Origin: Candidatus Gastranaerophilales bacterium
GTDB taxonomy: Bacteria > Cyanobacteriota > Vampirovibrionia > Gastranaerophilales > Gastranaerophilaceae
Length of the DNA: 32,970 nucleotides
Direction: 5' to 3'
Assembly: GCA_944323265.1 (NCBI GenBank)
Contig: CALURX010000022.1
Span: forward strand, 1-32,970
The notes under the pieces were generated by a model. It was given only the letters and a program-made list of their open reading frames with translations, searched no databases and had not been told where the DNA came from. Position numbers and translations under genes: made by a program. Shown here one piece after another: positions 5,370 through 30,555 of the stretch (the first letter of the stretch is position 1; the number at the start of each line of letters is the position of its first letter).

Positions 5370-7223
5370 CTAAGCTTTATGAGATTCTCTATTTTGAGAT
5401 GCTGCCATCATCTTTGCGTGTGTCTTACGCGTATTTGAATATGTAAGCAAAGGTATCAGACAGCCCAGTATGACAGGAGAAATTATAAATGTGGAAAGAA
5501 CTCCCGGTAAAGAATTTAAACCGCGTGCTACTGTTGCTATTTTATTTTTCTTAATATCAACAGCACTTTGCATCAATTCCGTAATTAATTTATTTCCGTT
5601 TTCACCTTCAAGTTTTTCAACAAAGGAAATAATTTTTTTATTCTTATCAGCGCGATTCATGCCTTTTAATGATTCCAGCTTAAATGTCGAATCATTAAAT
5701 ACTTTATCTGCATTTTCGGATTTTGATAAAATCTTTTCCAAATCTCCGCCCTTATTATTAACATAGTGACAGAAATTCATCATTTTTTCTTTTGAATTTA
5801 TATTTCCATAAAGAGCTTCTAATTCAGCATTAGTAAAGACTTTTAAATCACTGAAAGGATTCAAGACATCCAGAGTTTTTCTAAAGAAATTCTTGTTTTC
5901 TGAAGCTTTGTTTGTAAGTATAAATCCTTGATGATTTTCATAAGAGTTTACAATCAACTTAGTCAATATCGGAACGGCAAATACAACTGACAGAGAAGAA
6001 ATAGAATCTCTCAATAAAATTTCGTGGATTTCAGACATATCTTTCTTGCCATTCTCGTCAACAATAGCTCTGTCATAAGCTCTTAAGCCTCTTGGAAGAA
6101 GAAGCCCGAATAATGATAGACAAGCGAAAGTTGCAGGTGAAAAATTATATCCGCTATACTCAAATTCTGCTTGAATCCACTCAGGAACCTTTTTTGTGAA
6201 AAATTCACCAATTTTTGCAATAGGTCCGCCAGAATTAATACCTCGGCCTTTAAACGAAGGGTTCTGTTTGTTTTGAGCATCTTTACCTTTTTTTGCTTCT
6301 ACAAGATGTTTTGCACCAGGTGCAACATCATTTGGTGCATATATTTTAGGCAAAACAGAGAGGCCGCCTAAAGTTACGGCTATATTTGCAACATTTGTCA
6401 TAAAGCGCTTTGTCGCAAAATTATTTTTAATATTCTCTGCTGCCTTCTCATCAACAAGAGCAAAGTCCTTATTATTGTATATTGCATCATTGCCGAAATC
6501 TTTGATTGCCTTTAAAACATCGCCGGCAGCAAACAATTTTTTGTCTTCACCTACTTTTAACTTGCACAAGTCATCCAATTCGGTTGAATTTTCTACCATT
6601 TTTTCATTCAACCTATCAAGAATTTTTTTATAAGAAGCGGCACTAGCCTTTTTATCTTTTGAATCGAAGGTTTTAAATTCAGATAATATATAATTAATTG
6701 TCTCATCAGCTTTTTTATCATTTGGTATTGTCTCTTTATAGATATTACCAATGCTGTATTTATAAAATTCTTCTTTGAATTTTTCTTTGTCAGCTTTTAT
6801 TGACTTATCAAATTCCGGAGATTTTATCATATTCTTTAAGTTATCTCCCATCCTTTTAATAAGTCTTGTATTTGTATTTGTAGAAAGACAGAATTTTCTG
6901 GTAAACCACAAAACTGCAGGCGCAACCGCAATCATAAACGGTCCGGTAAGTCCTTCACGTCCTAAAACTTCCAAGCCTTCCTGAACATTATATTCCCCTG
7001 TAACCTCTTTATCTCTGTGAAATCCGGTAAGTACACGAGGCAAGGTCATACCAAGACCATCCTGAATCAAGAAAGAGAGAAGGTATCCCTTATTCTCAAT
7101 TCCTTGCATAACTGTACCTGAGGCACCTAAAGCCCACATTCCGAATGACTTAAAGGAAGGATTCTGTTTTCTTTGGCTATGATTTTGATTCGGAGTTTGA
7201 GCGTTGATACTTGTAATTTTCAA
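5370..7223 (-). CDS. Unknown membrane protein with duplicated FK-motif module
   Basis: I do not recognise this protein (617 residues from a TTG start). I chose TTG at 7223 because AGGG lies 8 bases before it; the same frame opens at another TTG at 7244 without a ribosome site. The heptapeptide KQNPSFK occurs twice, exactly 300 residues apart (about 19-25 and 319-325). Each copy is followed by a similar module: a hydrophobic stretch with LPR (61-63 and 376-378), a polar loop, a Glu...Arg-Glu/Asp helix (EVLGREGLTGP, EILLRDSISS) and another hydrophobic helix. A lysine-rich helical region separates the modules, and a C-terminal membrane segment ends the protein. The gene at 23809 has the same layout. 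Function unknown; probably membrane-bound. Confidence 0.75.
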   Translation of the reverse strand: MKITSINAQTPNQNHSQRKQNPSFKSFGMWALGASGTVMQGIENKGYLLSFLIQDGLGMTLPRVLTGFHRDKEVTGEYNVQEGLEVLGREGLTGPFMIAVAPAVLWFTRKFCLSTNTNTRLIKRMGDNLKNMIKSPEFDKSIKADKEKFKEEFYKYSIGNIYKETIPNDKKADETINYILSEFKTFDSKDKKASAASYKKILDRLNEKMVENSTELDDLCKLKVGEDKKLFAAGDVLKAIKDFGNDAIYNNKDFALVDEKAAENIKNNFATKRFMTNVANIAVTLGGLSVLPKIYAPNDVAPGAKHLVEAKKGKDAQNKQNPSFKGRGINSGGPIAKIGEFFTKKVPEWIQAEFEYSGYNFSPATFACLSLFGLLLPRGLRAYDRAIVDENGKKDMSEIHEILLRDSISSLSVVFAVPILTKLIVNSYENHQGFILTNKASENKNFFRKTLDVLNPFSDLKVFTNAELEALYGNINSKEKMMNFCHYVNNKGGDLEKILSKSENADKVFNDSTFKLESLKGMNRADKNKKIISFVEKLEGENGNKLITELMQSAVDIKKNKIATVARGLNSLPGVLSTFIISPVILGCLIPLLTYSNTRKTHAKMMAASQNRESHKA

Positions 7224-7246
7224 TATTCTATCCCTACATTTCAACT

Positions 7247-8248: not shown

Positions 8249-10198
8249 CTACAACAACTGCAAAGCAATACTCGGCGTTTGGTTAACAGTTGCAAGAAGT
8301 GTTGCGGAAGCCTGTTGGAGAATTTGCATTTTGATATACTGACTGGACTCTTCCGCAATATCCGCATCACGAATAGTTGACTGCGTCGAAGTCAAATTAT
8401 CTATCGATACCCCGATTGATTCAAGCGCAGATTCAAGTCTGTTATACGCTGCGCCATATTCAGTCTGTTTTGCACTGATTTGAGCTAAAACTTCGTCAAT
8501 TTGTTCCAAGGCATTACGAGCTGAGTCTGAAGTTGATACATCAAGTGTTAGAGAAAAATTAAAACCTAACTCCAACAATATTTGTGAGCTTTCGTCAGAA
8601 TGTATACCGGCTTGAAACTTAATACTGACTGGATTAGATGGCAGTATACCACCGTCAATAAGACCACTTAAATCCAAATTTCCGTAATTGTCACCGATTG
8701 CATTTAAACCGGAATTAACGGCGCTATAGTATATACAATTATCTATAAATCCATCTTCTGTAGAACCAATAAATGCTCCAGTTGTTGTCTCATCATTGCC
8801 AATAATCGAACTTGTAGTATAACTATTATGGATTTCTCCTTGTGAAAGTCCTAATAATCCACCGACATGCTCGTCTCCTATTACACTTCCTGTCGAATAG
8901 CAATTTTGCATTGTAGAAGAGCCAGCAAATTCTCCTGCGAGTCCACCAACTTCAGTTCCTCCATTTACATTACCTGTTGCATAACTATTTAAAATGGTTC
9001 CATACCATACCTCACCAATAAGACCACCTATCAAATAGTCTGTTTCTGTTGAATTAACATTTCCGGTTGCATAACAATTATCAACTGTACACTGGTCTAC
9101 TTCACCAGCTAAACCACCGGCATAGTCACCGTCATTAGTAATATTCCCTGTTGAATATGAATTAATGATATCAAGATACTCTGCTATTCCAATAATTCCT
9201 CCGGTCTCACCGCCTCCCACAATATTTGCTGTTGAATAGCAATTTTGAATATTACCTCCCTGCAGGTCTCCAATGATACCTCCCGTCTCTCCTTTACTTC
9301 CTATAATAGTTCCATTTGTTACATAACAATTTATAAAACTTGTCGTATAACCCCCTCCACTTAATCCGCCAACATCTCTTGAGCCGGTTATATTAATATT
9401 CTCTAGGCCTATATTAGATATTATAGCGCCGTATGTATATCCAAAGAATCCTTGATAGTTTTCATTTGGTTTATTAATTGTAAGGTTTTTTATTTTATAC
9501 CCATTTCCGTTAAACTCGCCTGTAAAAGAATTTCTAGAATTACTGTCTGTTCCAATTGAATCCCAGTCATAGCCTGCAAGGTTGATATCGTTCATCAATA
9601 TGTATTTACCGTCCAGGTCGTTTTGCATTGCTTGCAATTCATCAGCGGTTTTGATAACTGTATATCCCTGTTGAATAGCTTCCTCTTCTGTTAAACGCTC
9701 AACCTCCTCAATAAAACCGTCATACTTTGCAGCAGGCGGTTCTGTTGTGGGGCCTACAGGAAAAGCTGGGCCGGATGCAGTATCGCTATAAAGCTTAATA
9801 CCGTTATACTCTGTCGTTGTACGGATTCTTACGCATTCTGCAAGGCGTGCGTTGATTTCTGATTGAATGGCGCTTAACGAAGAAGCCCCATAAGTGCCGT
9901 TTGCTGCTTGTTCTGACAGGTCGCGCATTCTGGATAAGTGGTCGGATATCAAAGACAAGCTGTCCATTGCGGTTGTCAGCATATCCAAGCCCATTGATAC
10001 GTTATCCTGAGCAACACTATAAGAGGATAATTTGCTCGCAAGGCTTGTGGAGATTGCGTAATTTGCAGCATTGTCTTTTGCGTGGTTGATTTTATATCCT
10101 GTTGTCATGCGCTCTATTGCTTGGTTTAATCCGTTTGTGGATGCGGCCAGGTTTGAGCGTACTATTAAAGAAGAGAGATTGGAGTTTATGCTAATCAT
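8249..10198 (-). CDS. fliC: Flagellin with GLUG-repeat beta-helix insert
   Basis: The protein (649 residues) has complete flagellin ends. Residues 1-145 form the N-terminal D0/D1 coiled coil (MISINSNLSSLIVRSNL, MTTGYKINHAKDNAANYAIS). Residues about 550-649 form the C-terminal D1/D0 (NLTSTQSTIRDADIAEESS to IALQLL). The part normally forming D2/D3 is replaced by about 370 residues: a lead-in like that of GLUG proteins (TADELQAMQNDLDGKYILMN, FTGEFNGNGYKIKNLTI), then eight repeats about 28 residues apart centred on GG-hydrophobic-x-G (VGGLSG, TGGIIG, AGGLAG, IGGLIG, VGGLLG), alternating with N-C/S-Y-x-T-G-x-I/V. GLUG repeats occur in bacterial surface adhesins and IgA-protease-like proteins and are predicted beta-solenoids. 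The insert should face outward on the filament. AGGAGG lies 5 bases before the ATG. Confidence 0.92.
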   Translation of the reverse strand: MISINSNLSSLIVRSNLAASTNGLNQAIERMTTGYKINHAKDNAANYAISTSLASKLSSYSVAQDNVSMGLDMLTTAMDSLSLISDHLSRMRDLSEQAANGTYGASSLSAIQSEINARLAECVRIRTTTEYNGIKLYSDTASGPAFPVGPTTEPPAAKYDGFIEEVERLTEEEAIQQGYTVIKTADELQAMQNDLDGKYILMNDINLAGYDWDSIGTDSNSRNSFTGEFNGNGYKIKNLTINKPNENYQGFFGYTYGAIISNIGLENINITGSRDVGGLSGGGYTTSFINCYVTNGTIIGSKGETGGIIGDLQGGNIQNCYSTANIVGGGETGGIIGIAEYLDIINSYSTGNITNDGDYAGGLAGEVDQCTVDNCYATGNVNSTETDYLIGGLIGEVWYGTILNSYATGNVNGGTEVGGLAGEFAGSSTMQNCYSTGSVIGDEHVGGLLGLSQGEIHNSYTTSSIIGNDETTTGAFIGSTEDGFIDNCIYYSAVNSGLNAIGDNYGNLDLSGLIDGGILPSNPVSIKFQAGIHSDESSQILLELGFNFSLTLDVSTSDSARNALEQIDEVLAQISAKQTEYGAAYNRLESALESIGVSIDNLTSTQSTIRDADIAEESSQYIKMQILQQASATLLATVNQTPSIALQLL

Positions 10199-10632
10199 GC
10201 ATACCTCCTTTTGGGGTAAAAGTTTTAAAGCCCCTCACCCTGGCCATCTCCCTGGAAAGGAGAGGGAAAAGATTGTGAAGCCCTGTTTGCTCAACTCCTA
10301 AATTTCTAAACTCCTCAACTTTGTAAAAATGCCCAAAAGCAGTGCTATAAGAGGGCTTTACCCCCCCTACGAGGGCGCGAGCTTCAGCCCCATTACCGGT
10401 ATTGGGTAAGACAATAGTTCTATTCTTACTGTGATGATTGGATAGATACATAACGATGTCACATTCCTTGGCCTCTATTATATATTAAATATATTCCACA
10501 TACCTATAAAATAATAACAATTTTCATGTATATTGTTACAAATCGTTACATTATTGTAATAATCAAATCTAAGCCTTGGCAAATTTATGGGTTTATAATA
10601 TTATAGATTTTATTCCAATTTTAGGAGGGGAT
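10199..10632. promoter_or_regulatory. Divergent control region: flagellin leader and transporter upstream region
   Basis: No convincing gene lies here. On the minus strand a perfect TATAAT (10477-10482) would give the flagellin mRNA a leader of about 270 nt; I find no clear -35 box and no sigma-28 GCCGATAA match. The leader's start-proximal part (10220-10400) is GC-richer than its surroundings. On the plus side, the palindrome TTACA-TTAT-TGTAA (10546-10559) stands between the two divergent genes and could be an operator. Another TATAAT lies at 10594-10599 before the transporter. Confidence 0.4.
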
Positions 10633-14842: not shown

Positions 14843-15736
14843 ATGAAAGGGATTGTACTCGCAGGCGGGGCAGGAACAAGATTATATCCGGCATCTCAGC
14901 CAATTTCTAAAATTTTGCTTCCTATATATGACAAACCGATGATTTATTATCCGCTATCAACCCTTATGCTTGCAGGAATTAAAGACATCCTGATTATTAC
15001 CAATGAGACTGATTATGATAATTTTATTAAGCTGCTTGGTGACGGTTCGCAATTCGGTTTGAATCTTAAATATAAAATCCAGTATGTTCAAAGAGGGATT
15101 GCGGACGCTTTTTTGATAGCGGAAGATTTTATTGCTGGCGAGGACGTTGCGCTTATACTGGGTGATAACATATTCCACGGACACGGATTTTCAACACTTA
15201 TGAAAAATGCTCTTGCAAAACACAGCGGCGCAACAATTTTCGGATACACGGTAAAAGACCCTGAAAGATTTGGTGTTGTTGAGTTTGACGAAAATAATAA
15301 AGCAATTTCTCTGGAAGAAAAGCCTGCTAATCCAAAATCTAATTACGCTGTAACCGGTTTATATTTTTATGACGGCAGGGTATGCGAATACGCTAAACAG
15401 CTTAAACCTTCTCAAAGAGGAGAATTAGAGATTACTGATTTGAATAAAATTTATCTTGAAAAAGGCAAGTTAAATGTAGAAATCTTAGGACGCGGATTTG
15501 CATGGCTTGATACAGGAACACACGATTCAATGCTTCAGGCAAGTTTGTTTGTTCAGACAATGGAACTGAATAAAGGGGTTAAAATTTCCTGCCTTGAAGA
15601 AATTGCGTTCAATCAAGGGTTTATTACAAAAGAAGAACTTTTAAGAAAAATAGAAAAATACGGATTCAAAAACGATTACTACAATTATGTGAGAACAGTA
15701 ATTGAACATCCTGATTTGGTTGCACTGAGCGTTTAA
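14843..15736 (+). CDS. rfbA: Glucose-1-phosphate thymidylyltransferase
   Basis: The 297-residue nucleotidyltransferase joins dTTP and glucose-1-phosphate to dTDP-glucose, the first step toward dTDP-rhamnose and other dTDP sugars for surface polysaccharide. The N-terminal GGAGTRLYPAS loop binds the nucleotide, and KILLPIYDKPMIYYPLSTLM is the RmlA signature. ILGDNIFHGHG holds the metal-binding Asp, followed by EEKPANPKSNYAVTGLYFYD and GRGFAWLDTGTH. The length is standard. The other rml genes are not in the window. A GAAAGGA ribosome site precedes the ATG. Its stop overlaps the stop of the convergent gene at 15733. Confidence 0.95.
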   Translation: MKGIVLAGGAGTRLYPASQPISKILLPIYDKPMIYYPLSTLMLAGIKDILIITNETDYDNFIKLLGDGSQFGLNLKYKIQYVQRGIADAFLIAEDFIAGEDVALILGDNIFHGHGFSTLMKNALAKHSGATIFGYTVKDPERFGVVEFDENNKAISLEEKPANPKSNYAVTGLYFYDGRVCEYAKQLKPSQRGELEITDLNKIYLEKGKLNVEILGRGFAWLDTGTHDSMLQASLFVQTMELNKGVKISCLEEIAFNQGFITKEELLRKIEKYGFKNDYYNYVRTVIEHPDLVALSV

Positions 15737-16494
15737 ATTTTATCTTCAAGGTCAGAATTAAAGTATCCTGCAATATATTTAAATGTATTCAGAGCCGTAT
15801 CAATACTCATTGTGCGGGGAGTGTTTCCGCGTTTTTCTTTTACTGTTATGGTGTTATTTTTTAAGTCAACATCTTCCAGAATATAAACATGCCAGGTTCT
15901 CCCATCGAGCATCTTGGGGCCTGTTGCGATAACAAAACTGTGATTTTTCTCTTTCTCCATGTGCTCAAAAAGGTGCATAACCTCTGCTCTATAGCCGTTA
16001 AGGTCAAAGTTGAAATCAGTTTCCGCTATAACTCTCGGCTCTTTTCCGGTTAGAATTTTCATAAAATGCGATGGCAGGCTGTTTTCAAAAGTATAAGTCT
16101 TAAAGTTATCAGAAAACCGGCAAATCCACGGCTTTGCTTTGTAAGTTTTCTCGTATTCTCCGACCGAAATATCCATTGCCCTTATAATATCATTGTCCTG
16201 TTTTTCATAAAGCTTCTCATACCCTTTCACCGCCTGATTTGAAGGGATTGAATATTTTACCCTGCTGCCTTTATTATACAAATAGCAGTTAATAATATTC
16301 GGGTTATTATCATCGTATTCTATCTGTTTTTTCAAAACCTTTCTGCCGTTCGGCGTATGTGAAAGCGTCTCCAGAGTTGTCATCAAATAACAATCGCTAA
16401 AATGCTGTTTTGCCTGCTCAAAATTATCAATATCCTTATCTGATATTGACGCTTTAAAGCTAATAAAATTCGGATAGTTAATACGAGAGAGCAT
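15733..16494 (-). CDS. Candidate calpain-like cysteine peptidase with FK motif
   Basis: The 253-residue protein has no clear name. The N-terminus carries the FK motif (NFISFKAS, residues 9-16). FSDCYLMTTLETLSHTPNGR resembles the calpain active-site helix (G-D-C-W-L-L-A-A-L), with Cys35 as possible nucleophile. RTWHVYILEDVD puts His202 where calpains have G-H-A-Y, and Asn224 (KRGN) lies 22 residues later, close to the spacing of the calpain His and Asn. The distal half alternates short beta strands and loops. Gln27 or Gln30 could form the oxyanion hole. There is no signal peptide and no calcium-site motif. The peptidase call is pattern-based; a catalytically dead relative is possible. Confidence 0.45.
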   Translation of the reverse strand: MLSRINYPNFISFKASISDKDIDNFEQAKQHFSDCYLMTTLETLSHTPNGRKVLKKQIEYDDNNPNIINCYLYNKGSRVKYSIPSNQAVKGYEKLYEKQDNDIIRAMDISVGEYEKTYKAKPWICRFSDNFKTYTFENSLPSHFMKILTGKEPRVIAETDFNFDLNGYRAEVMHLFEHMEKEKNHSFVIATGPKMLDGRTWHVYILEDVDLKNNTITVKEKRGNTPRTMSIDTALNTFKYIAGYFNSDLEDKI

Positions 16495-23787: not shown

Positions 23788-23808
23788 ATTGTGCTTGAAA
23801 GGGAATAT

Positions 23809-25335
23809 ATGGACTTAACAATTAACAAATTTAACACAAACTTGGCATTCAAAGGCCCGCTTGACGGCGCTATAACAGGGATTTTAAGAACCTGCGACAC
23901 CAGTGAAATGGTTAATGCAGTAGGACTTGATATCGGGGCTATGGTAATCCCGAGAGCATATTATGATACAAAAGCTCGTAACAAATACGCAGGATGCGAG
24001 ACATTTATTAGAGAAATAAGCGGAACATTCATAAACTGTCTTGCAGCAGGAATTTTTGCAAAATATATTTCTAAAGTTGCTTCTCAGGACATTATGCCGG
24101 ATGTAAAAATTAACCCTAAAAGCTGGTACACAAAGGCTTCTCTTGCTACTTTAAAAGAGGCTTGGGATAAAAGCGGCAATATTAAAGGGTATGTAAAAAA
24201 TGTTTTTGAAAATCTTTCCGGCAGAGACGGCCATAACATTAATGAGTTTAAAAACATAAACTGGAGCAAAATTGACTGGATAGACGAAAAACGCTGGGAA
24301 AAAATTAAATGGAATAATGAAGAATATAAAAATATCCAAGACAAACTCAAAACAAAAGAAGATTTTACCAAAACTTTTGTCAAACTTATTGAAGATAAAA
24401 ATATTACAGACAATGACCGTAAAAATATTTTAAAATTAATGGAACACCGTCTCACTAATGCTCTCGGAGCCGGAAGGGACACCGAGGTTAAAATAGGAGA
24501 CAAAACTCTTTGTGCAAAACTTGAAAACATTTTACGAGATTCACATGATATGGCAAAAGATATTTTTACCAATAAAGAGGTAAATACAGAGGCTGCAATC
24601 AAAAAAATTGCAAAAATCAACAAAATAAAAACTTTTGGTGCAATTGCAGGTGCTTCTCTATTAGGAATTACAAACCAGTATATCAACAGAAAAATAACCG
24701 AAAAACGAACCGGGAAAAAGGGTTTTGTAGGCGAAGTGGACTTTACTTCAAGCTTTAGAAAAGAGCGTAAAAAAGATAATTTTTTATGGCTCAAAAAAAC
24801 TCTGGCAAGTGCCGGCATGGCTGGTATGGTTATAAGCGTAATGCGTGTGAAAAATTTGAAGGACTTTGCCCGCAAGCTTGAATTTACAGGTCCAATCACC
24901 AGCGGAAACGCAATTAAAACAGTTTACGCCTTTAATATTATCGGAAGATTTATGGCAGCAGACAACGGAACAGAGCTTAGAGAATCAATGACAAGAGATT
25001 ATTTCGGCTTCCTAAACTGGCTTGTATTTGGCGGTTTTGCAGCCAAGGGAGTTGCAAATCTTCTTGACAAAAAAGGAGAGCATTTATTTAATTACACTAA
25101 AAAAGGTAAAGGATTAAAACACTGGTTAAATGATATGAGCCTAAAAACCCATAATGAAATCGCTTCAAAAGGAAAAGATTTTGCGAAGAATAATATCTGG
25201 AAATTAAACCTCGCGCATGCCTGCGGTCTTGCATATTCTGCTATAACTCTTGGAATATTACTCCCTATGGTTAATGCAAAAATGACAAAATATAAAAGCC
25301 GCAAGAAGGAAGGAGAGCAAGCAAGCTTATCTTAA
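23809..25335 (+). CDS. Unknown membrane protein, two-module FK-motif family
   Basis: The protein has 508 residues from the ATG at 23809 (AAAGGG 5 bases upstream); a GTG at 23791 in the same frame overlaps the hairpin region and is less likely. I know no named family. It starts MDLTINKFNTNLAFKGPLDG, with the FK motif at 13-16. The first module (about 35-90) has IGAMVIPRAYYDT, a loop, ETFIREISGTF and a hydrophobic helix. A second, related module (about 357-425) opens with LEFTGP and has IIGRFMAADNGTELRESMTRDYFGFLNWLVFGG. A charged helical region with Trp-Lys-rich repeats lies between, and a hydrophobic segment is near the C-terminus. The layout parallels the protein at 5370-7223. Expression may be controlled by the leader attenuator. 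Confidence 0.75.
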   Translation: MDLTINKFNTNLAFKGPLDGAITGILRTCDTSEMVNAVGLDIGAMVIPRAYYDTKARNKYAGCETFIREISGTFINCLAAGIFAKYISKVASQDIMPDVKINPKSWYTKASLATLKEAWDKSGNIKGYVKNVFENLSGRDGHNINEFKNINWSKIDWIDEKRWEKIKWNNEEYKNIQDKLKTKEDFTKTFVKLIEDKNITDNDRKNILKLMEHRLTNALGAGRDTEVKIGDKTLCAKLENILRDSHDMAKDIFTNKEVNTEAAIKKIAKINKIKTFGAIAGASLLGITNQYINRKITEKRTGKKGFVGEVDFTSSFRKERKKDNFLWLKKTLASAGMAGMVISVMRVKNLKDFARKLEFTGPITSGNAIKTVYAFNIIGRFMAADNGTELRESMTRDYFGFLNWLVFGGFAAKGVANLLDKKGEHLFNYTKKGKGLKHWLNDMSLKTHNEIASKGKDFAKNNIWKLNLAHACGLAYSAITLGILLPMVNAKMTKYKSRKKEGEQASLS

Positions 25336-29849: not shown

Positions 29850-30555
29850 CTAAGATTGTTTTTCAAGCTCTGAAACTCTATTTCGAAGCTCCTCTATTGC
29901 TTTTTGTTGTTCTTCAATCAACTTTTGCTGAGCCTTTATTGTTTCATCCTGCTCTTTATTTTTTGTTTTTACACTTACGATATCTTCTATATTTGTTTTA
30001 GCCTGCAAAGATAATGTCTCTATTTTGTTATCGAGTTCTTTTACGGCATTTATTACTGCATAGAACATTTCATCCCATCTAATACTCAAATAACCATCTT
30101 CATCCAATTTTACCGCATCAGGGAATACTTTTTGTAAATCCTGTGCTATTACACCAACTTGAGGTCTTTTTGTCTTATCATCCTTGAATGTATAGTTATA
30201 AAAATCAAGTTTTTTGAGCGCTTCAAGTCCTAAAGTATATTTTTCTCCAATATTTTTCAAACGTTTATCAGACTTCTTCCAGATAGAATAGTATATTTTC
30301 CCGCGAACTGTTACAGAACTATACCAGTTGATACGCACCTAAAGCCGTCGCACCTGTCACACCGGATGAGTTTGCATCAGCATAATTCCTTAGAGCAACA
30401 CCATTTGCTCTAGCAGAGGAATCTGCACCTATACTTACGGCACTATTACCATACGCGTTAGCCTCTCCTACGATTGCGATAGAACGAAGAAATGTATTCG
30501 TATTTAAACCTATTGCAATTGTATTGTCGTCCTTCGCCTGTGCATTGTTTCCAAA
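29850..30555 (-). pseudogene. Truncated, frameshifted YadA-head/S74 fibre gene
   Basis: Two overlapping minus-strand frames make one broken gene. The upstream part (30555 to 30319) encodes YadA/trimeric-autotransporter head repeats (NTIAIGLNTNTF, SAVSIGADSSARANG, GATALGAY). A one-base frame change near 30335 joins it to the downstream part (to 29850): WYSSVTVRGKIYYSIW, then the S74 intramolecular chaperone domain with SDKRLKNI (self-cleavage Ser) and PQVGVIAQDLQKVFPDAV, and a C-terminal coiled coil. Such domains trim themselves off tail fibres and surface adhesins. The 5' end is missing: coding sequence starts right at the HU terminator with no promoter, signal peptide or credible start. Sequencing error could explain the frameshift but not the truncation. 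Confidence 0.75.

Follow-up and report, generated by a model that had tools for sequence, protein, structure and literature searches.

A GLUG β-helix flagellin of gut Gastranaerophilales and the poly-G leader reading frames that may switch its class

In Salmonella and E. coli, flagellar phase variation operates through DNA inversion or recombination, by which flagellins are stochastically switched. The proposal developed here for a flagellin of gut Gastranaerophilales resembles these systems in its stochastic switching of alternative flagellins, but it invokes a slipped-strand tract rather than a DNA rearrangement, and the core flagellins are apparently unswitched. The homopolymeric-tract phase-variable genes of Campylobacter, Helicobacter and Neisseria (PMC2831843, PMC8355987) are alike in their poly-G length differences and their frame-dependent reading; here, in contrast, the tract belongs to a distinct leader ORF overlapping the gene start, and control would fall on an accessory flagellin itself. 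With respect to the protein itself, the flagellinolysin-type flagellins (PMC5595980) keep intact ends around a hypervariable region that houses a foreign domain, as does the flagellin described here, whose insert is, however, a GLUG β-helix alone with no HExxH motif. Eckhard et al. (2017; PMC5595980) described domain-bearing flagellins, some of them annotated as Peptidase M26, Hu and Reeves surveyed flagellin diversity with Melainabacteria included (PMC7018530), and full flagellar gene sets have been reported in some gut Melainabacteria (PMC3787301, PMC4040986). Neither PMC5595980 nor PMC7018530 uses the word “GLUG” in its main text, and the available text of the former makes no mention of a leader tract. 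Judged by titles, in a literature search that covered subscription journals thinly, no description of GLUG flagellins or of a leader-ORF switch was found, and nothing on Gastranaerophilales flagellins or Melainabacteria phase variation described such a system. The poly-G leader tracts look to be more novel than the GLUG insert.

The window analyzed here is a 32,970-nucleotide stretch from a Candidatus Gastranaerophilales assembly (GCA_944323265.1, contig CALURX010000022.1), in which the features of the flagellin and its leader are distributed as given in Table 1. A first-pass annotation had described the locus as a flagellin with both ends intact and a GLUG solenoid as its exposed middle. The ORF is confirmed, on the minus strand, a point that annotation had left out, and both ends are indeed intact, with Flagellin_N at residues 4–140 (3.2e-28) and Flagellin_C at residues 564–649 (4.4e-18) each above the Pfam-A cut-offs. 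A search for the GLUG profile, named beforehand as a point on which the description could fail, recovered Pfam Glug (PF07581) in seven stretches of the insert (1.9e-22; 78.5 bits versus a cut-off of 20.5), and chance resemblance was dismissed. The segment that had been called the lead-in coincides with a Peptidase_M26_N match at residues 184–281, which at 26.4 bits falls slightly below its 27.7-bit cut-off. Across the source genome (2.24 Mb in 106 contigs) Glug matches are confined to the window gene, while Flagellin_N has nine matches, the single weak one reading as FlgL-like, and a search of the genome also found FlhA- and FliD-family genes. The FlhA family is represented by two full-length FHIPEP genes (C11:16637-18628 and C4:57394-59370), perhaps pointing to a second type III export system. 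Elsewhere in the window, a small protein at 29850-30338 (minus strand) carries a Peptidase_S74 (endosialidase chaperone) domain with a coiled-coil-like tail, and three proteins of 253–624 aa (5370-7244 and 15733-16494 on the minus strand, 23791-25335 on the plus strand) have zero Pfam matches at 0.001.

Table 1. Features of the accessory flagellin gene and its leader in the window
Feature	Position	Strand	Basis
Accessory flagellin gene, 649 aa	8249..10198	minus	
Flagellin_N, D0/D1 N-terminal half	9779..10189	minus	Pfam
Lead-in and predicted GLUG right-handed β-helix, residues about 170-520	8639..9691	minus	Pfam Glug; AlphaFold2; IgA1 protease β-helix match, Z 29.7
Flagellin_C, D0/D1 C-terminal half, residues 564-649	8252..8509	minus	Pfam
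Leader ORF, 86 codons (MYLSNHH...), stop 8 nt within the flagellin gene	10191..10451	minus	Homologous start in the C44 leader
Poly-G tract G7 inside the leader ORF	10361..10367	minus	Sequence; chance yields 0.69 such runs per window
GGAGG, probable flagellin ribosome-binding site, paired in the predicted fold	10204..10208	minus	Sequence, fold
Conserved block TGTAAC...TGTGGAATATA...TATAAT, probable promoter	10477..10540	minus	Kept in six aligned leaders

Structure prediction, likewise set in advance as a check that could refute the solenoid, favored it over ordinary D2/D3 domains. In an AlphaFold2 model built on 42 sequences (mean pLDDT 84.9) the insert forms a chain of short strands with pLDDT mostly at 90–98, and residues ~170–520 are confidently predicted to be a right-handed β-helix of about eight turns or more. 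In structural comparisons of the model with VIA-align, this region best matches the M26 IgA1 proteases and their relatives (7uvk, Z 29.7; 3n6z, 29.0; 7uvl, 28.4; 6xjb, 28.3), with other β-helices scoring far lower at Z about 21, and the terminal segments align with solved flagellins (Z about 20), consistent with the D0/D1 fold. The same IgA1 proteases are recovered by a phmmer search with the window protein. The β-helix fold predicted for the window flagellin, and its GLUG-type repeats, are shared with the Streptococcus and Gemella M26 IgA1 proteases and with the Bacteroides ovatus protein 3n6z; unlike the proteases, the window protein lacks protease domains, its β-helix instead appearing grafted into a flagellin. 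In the pneumococcal IgA1 protease the IgA1 Fab is bound by the N-terminal domain, to which the β-helix belongs (PMC7695701), and by analogy this renders a binding role of the flagellin insert plausible, though it takes the argument no further. The NCY tripeptides start at residues 290, 319, 374 and 432 exactly as first reported, with NSY filling the equivalent place at residues 346, 404 and 458 and N487-C488 forming the last of the eight-turn series. Their proposed bonding along the solenoid as a disulfide ladder is, however, unsupported: because NCY alternates with NSY by turn, recurs in the solved relative 3n6z, and has its C291 conserved at 90% or more across the 42 insert flagellins, it looks like the ordinary GLUG consensus. 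Hence, the solenoid and the intact ends of the first-pass description stand, its idea of a filament acting as a multivalent adhesin is a conjecture, and the NCY bonding lacks support, while the accessory clade and the poly-G leader ORF, considered below, had been overlooked.

The same insert is found in other flagellins. It was matched in 67 of the 287 genomes of a family-level sample, some of these matches being in other large proteins, and in 24 of the 292 genomes of a phylum-level sample, the farthest reach of the occurrence survey, of which 23 belong to the same family and one to another family of the order. The flagellins of all fetched loci, after de-duplication, comprise 92 core versions, with no more than 149 aa separating the end segments, 71 insert versions, with at least 286 aa there, and 19 lacking an in-frame Flagellin_C; these 19, of which 12 lie within their stretch and seven are cut by its end, and genes with under 150 nt upstream, were excluded from the core and insert counts. 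Relatives found by sequence are mostly labeled Candidatus Gastranaerophilales or Melainabacteria, and some as uncultured bacteria or, implausibly, Acinetobacter. In a tree of the ends only, one branch separates the 71 insert from the 92 core flagellins (SH-aLRT 92), by which, within the gathered sample, the window gene falls into an accessory flagellin clade of gut Gastranaerophilales. Accessory flagellins with other inserts exist, such as one of 1329 aa with RTX and DUF3060 matches (L168) and one of 1796 aa (L169). The source genome has a second accessory flagellin on contig C44 (L149:270-4488), with a G10 leader and long RTX-like repeats, and its reading is broken between 1858 and 1930 into ORFs of 503 and 852 aa. 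Separately, two relatives (G064:C5 and G112:C1, with parts in L019 and L021) have GLUG-like repeats in open frames that span 11061 and 8905 aa and are probably giant surface proteins.

The diversity within this clade bears on whether the insert has any specific function. It could be ordinary hypervariable-region diversity, structural or antigenic in nature, without a specific ligand and selected by immunity or phages. Flagellin central regions are extremely diverse in general (PMC7018530), the inserts vary widely in length and sequence, and many unrelated proteins adopt β-helix folds. Against this, the fold is conserved through the class, with Glug detected in 34 and the M26_N lead-in in 26 of the 42 aligned insert flagellins, and the nearest solved relatives place the domain in a substrate-binding region (PMC7695701). 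We regard ordinary diversity as a possible though not a probable account, and one that would be compatible with the leader switch discussed next.

Upstream of the flagellin genes, runs of seven or more G are present within 900 nt in 26 of the 71 insert versions (run lengths 7–15; absent from the other 45) as opposed to none of the 92 core versions, and within 200 nt in 19 of the 71 versus none of the 92, with one additional poly-C run; as the insert genes form a single clade, these counts are descriptive, and calculated probabilities overstate their independence. Each poly-G run sits within a small upstream ORF. Thirty tract leaders are available, namely those of the 26 insert genes and of four of the 19 genes without an in-frame Flagellin_C, with L277 and L022 being near-copies. 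In all 30, a frame stays open between the tract and the start of the flagellin, versus 9.6 expected from dinucleotide shuffles. Tract-free natural upstream windows are also open in 58–68% of cases at short distances and, therefore, it is the longer leaders that carry this argument, the open stretches including lengths of 360–515 nt. The ORF start codon lies 45–95 nt before the tract, mostly 70–95 nt, in 29 of the 30, and among upstream open stretches that reach over the flagellin start, the longest has a median of 49 codons in insert versions versus 20 in core versions. Further, a leader found via its DNA alone, outside the 30 counted (L354), shows a 376-codon open stretch ending at the start of an accessory flagellin. 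Taken by itself, the open frame in the leader of the window gene would not be surprising, being reproduced at 0.2 in shuffles.

These leaders could instead be viewed as a dispersed repeat or regulatory RNA cassette whose tract, though unstable, would be neutral, with the open frame stemming from a small conserved protein or from chance. Among loci with enough downstream sequence, leader cassettes precede flagellins at L354, L357, L367 and L377, and at L353, L355, L366 and L379 they precede non-flagellin genes that read as housekeeping genes. Relatives carry several copies of part of the window leader. Similar post-tract sequence occurs in other leader cassettes, so that the 3' part of the window leader, first taken for a simple repeat insertion, belongs at least in part to the cassette. 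The source genome additionally holds another dispersed, partly tandem intergenic repeat (e.g., L138:2510-2575 and L158:2571-2694), which has a spacing of 57–58 bp, begins with G7–G10 followed by TAAAT and is distinct from the leader tracts. However, the consistency with which the tract leaders open into the flagellin start, over as much as 515 nt, and the lack of such a tract in core flagellins make a neutral cassette unlikely. A conserved small protein is also ill-suited to the observation that, in six aligned leaders, the leader peptide diverges and the start context and the tract are kept.

A further set of features concerns the ribosome-binding site. Its predicted unpaired probability in tract leaders is 0.298 versus 0.376 in shuffles (p 7e-4), in contrast to the core leaders, where it is more open than in shuffles (0.568 versus 0.488). 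The tract and tract-free insert leaders show no significant difference in this folding (p 0.11) and, accordingly, the closed site may be a trait of the whole accessory class. Stops barely inside the downstream gene together with a closed ribosome-binding site are usual signs of translational coupling, and the predicted closure fits with a start that is opened by a ribosome coming from the leader ORF. An alternative in which the tract acts as a promoter spacer was set aside: a TATAAT follows the tract in some leaders but is missing from that place in others, e.g., L017, L067, L072, L081 and L022, a conserved TATAAT is instead located ahead of the leader ORF, and all 30 leaders agree with the frame test. 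A simple consensus promoter scan did not pick the TATAAT of the conserved block.

Taken together, phase-variable expression of the insert flagellin class is most likely, and the explanation as a whole, an accessory GLUG β-helix flagellin that bears a binding or antigenic rod and is phase-variable through leader-ORF coupling, appears to us to be the better-supported account, if by no means a secure one. The D0/D1 ends would co-polymerize with the genome's six core flagellins or assemble next to them, and the insert, in place of D2/D3, would stud the filament with rods serving in binding or in antigen presentation. The leader transcript would bear the short ORF containing the poly-G tract; with the tract in the right frame, ribosomes would reach the flagellin start, unfold the structured ribosome-binding site and reinitiate (ON), and in the other tract frames the leader ribosomes would terminate early (OFF). 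As the tract is placed outside the flagellin reading frame, the N-terminus would be left untouched for export and assembly. The coupling, its polarity, the actual switching and the binding function are what we infer from the sequences. That many members of the clade are under separate stochastic poly-G leader-ORF switches, resulting in random combinations of filament surfaces per cell, has in our estimation an even chance of being correct.

The polarity merits separate consideration since most leaders are currently in an early-stop phase, by which ON and OFF could be reversed, such that run-through blocks the flagellin start and an early stop permits it. With L249 having no scored ORF start, 29 leaders could be assigned a phase, of which 23 are in early stop and six in run-through, a proportion still compatible with one third (p 0.17). 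This compatibility, along with the coupling signs noted above, renders the reverse polarity decidedly unlikely. The window leader is itself in the run-through phase, with the addition or removal of one base ending its ORF 146 or 159 nt early.

Evidence that the tracts change in length comes from relatives, in which near-identical copies can be compared. Genome G321 has six leader copies, 92–98% identical across 200 flanking bases, with tracts of 9, 11, 11, 13, 13 and 14 and 0 gap events in the 3000 flank columns compared, and the orthologs L024 and L025, with flanks 97.8% identical, carry G13 (early stop) and G9 (run-through), respectively. Counting against slippage, two identical leaders in genome G328 have equal tracts, as do three of the eight leader pairs of at least 83% identity. 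Some relatives also have genes split at poly-G or poly-C runs directly past the N-terminal D1 half, out of frame in four of six such cases. We infer that the tract differences would reflect slipped-strand phase variation acting by translational coupling. It might be argued that faulty assembly produced both the frameshifts and the differences in tract length, and that the split genes are pseudogenes, as all the genomes are metagenome assemblies in which many gene copies stop at contig ends; nevertheless, near-identical leaders differ at the tract alone and the 92 core flagellins of like assemblies lack tracts, making this very improbable. For the window leader, a sequence search found no near-identical copy. 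It is 84% identical over 120 bases to the G10 leader of the second accessory flagellin of its own genome, and it has the conserved block in common with G328 leaders bearing G11–G14. Given that leaders homologous or related to it have tracts of G8–G15, its short G7 would suggest that the window gene has either a low-rate switch or a tract that was shortened and is partly locked. Finally, proteolytic activity like that of M26 peptidases or flagellinolysin can be dismissed as exceedingly improbable for this flagellin, the resemblance of the lead-in to Peptidase_M26_N and the reported M26-annotated flagellins (PMC5595980) notwithstanding, for a motif scan of the 649-aa protein finds no HExxH zinc site and the protein shares the β-helix alone with the protease.

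Poly-G tracts in this genome are also seen at large autotransporter-like ORFs on contigs C35 (L146:2-2554) and C46 (L151:3-2582), which have a G11 just before the signal peptide; the frame upstream of the G11 is closed in the former and open in the latter. Together with the leader cassettes at other genes, these suggest that the lineage may generally vary its surface proteins through poly-G tracts, with the flagellin leaders as one form of this. If the proposed scheme is correct, some of the flagellins annotated as Peptidase M26 (PMC5595980) may be protease-free solenoid flagellins, and leader-ORF switching would be directly testable on existing metagenome reads. The leader-ORF design would constitute a phase-variation architecture for proteins whose N-termini tolerate no repeat. 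Further, a common but poorly studied gut lineage would vary its flagellar surface through a repertoire of solenoid-bearing flagellins, a plausible means to alter binding to the host or to polymers and to escape IgA, TLR5 or phages.
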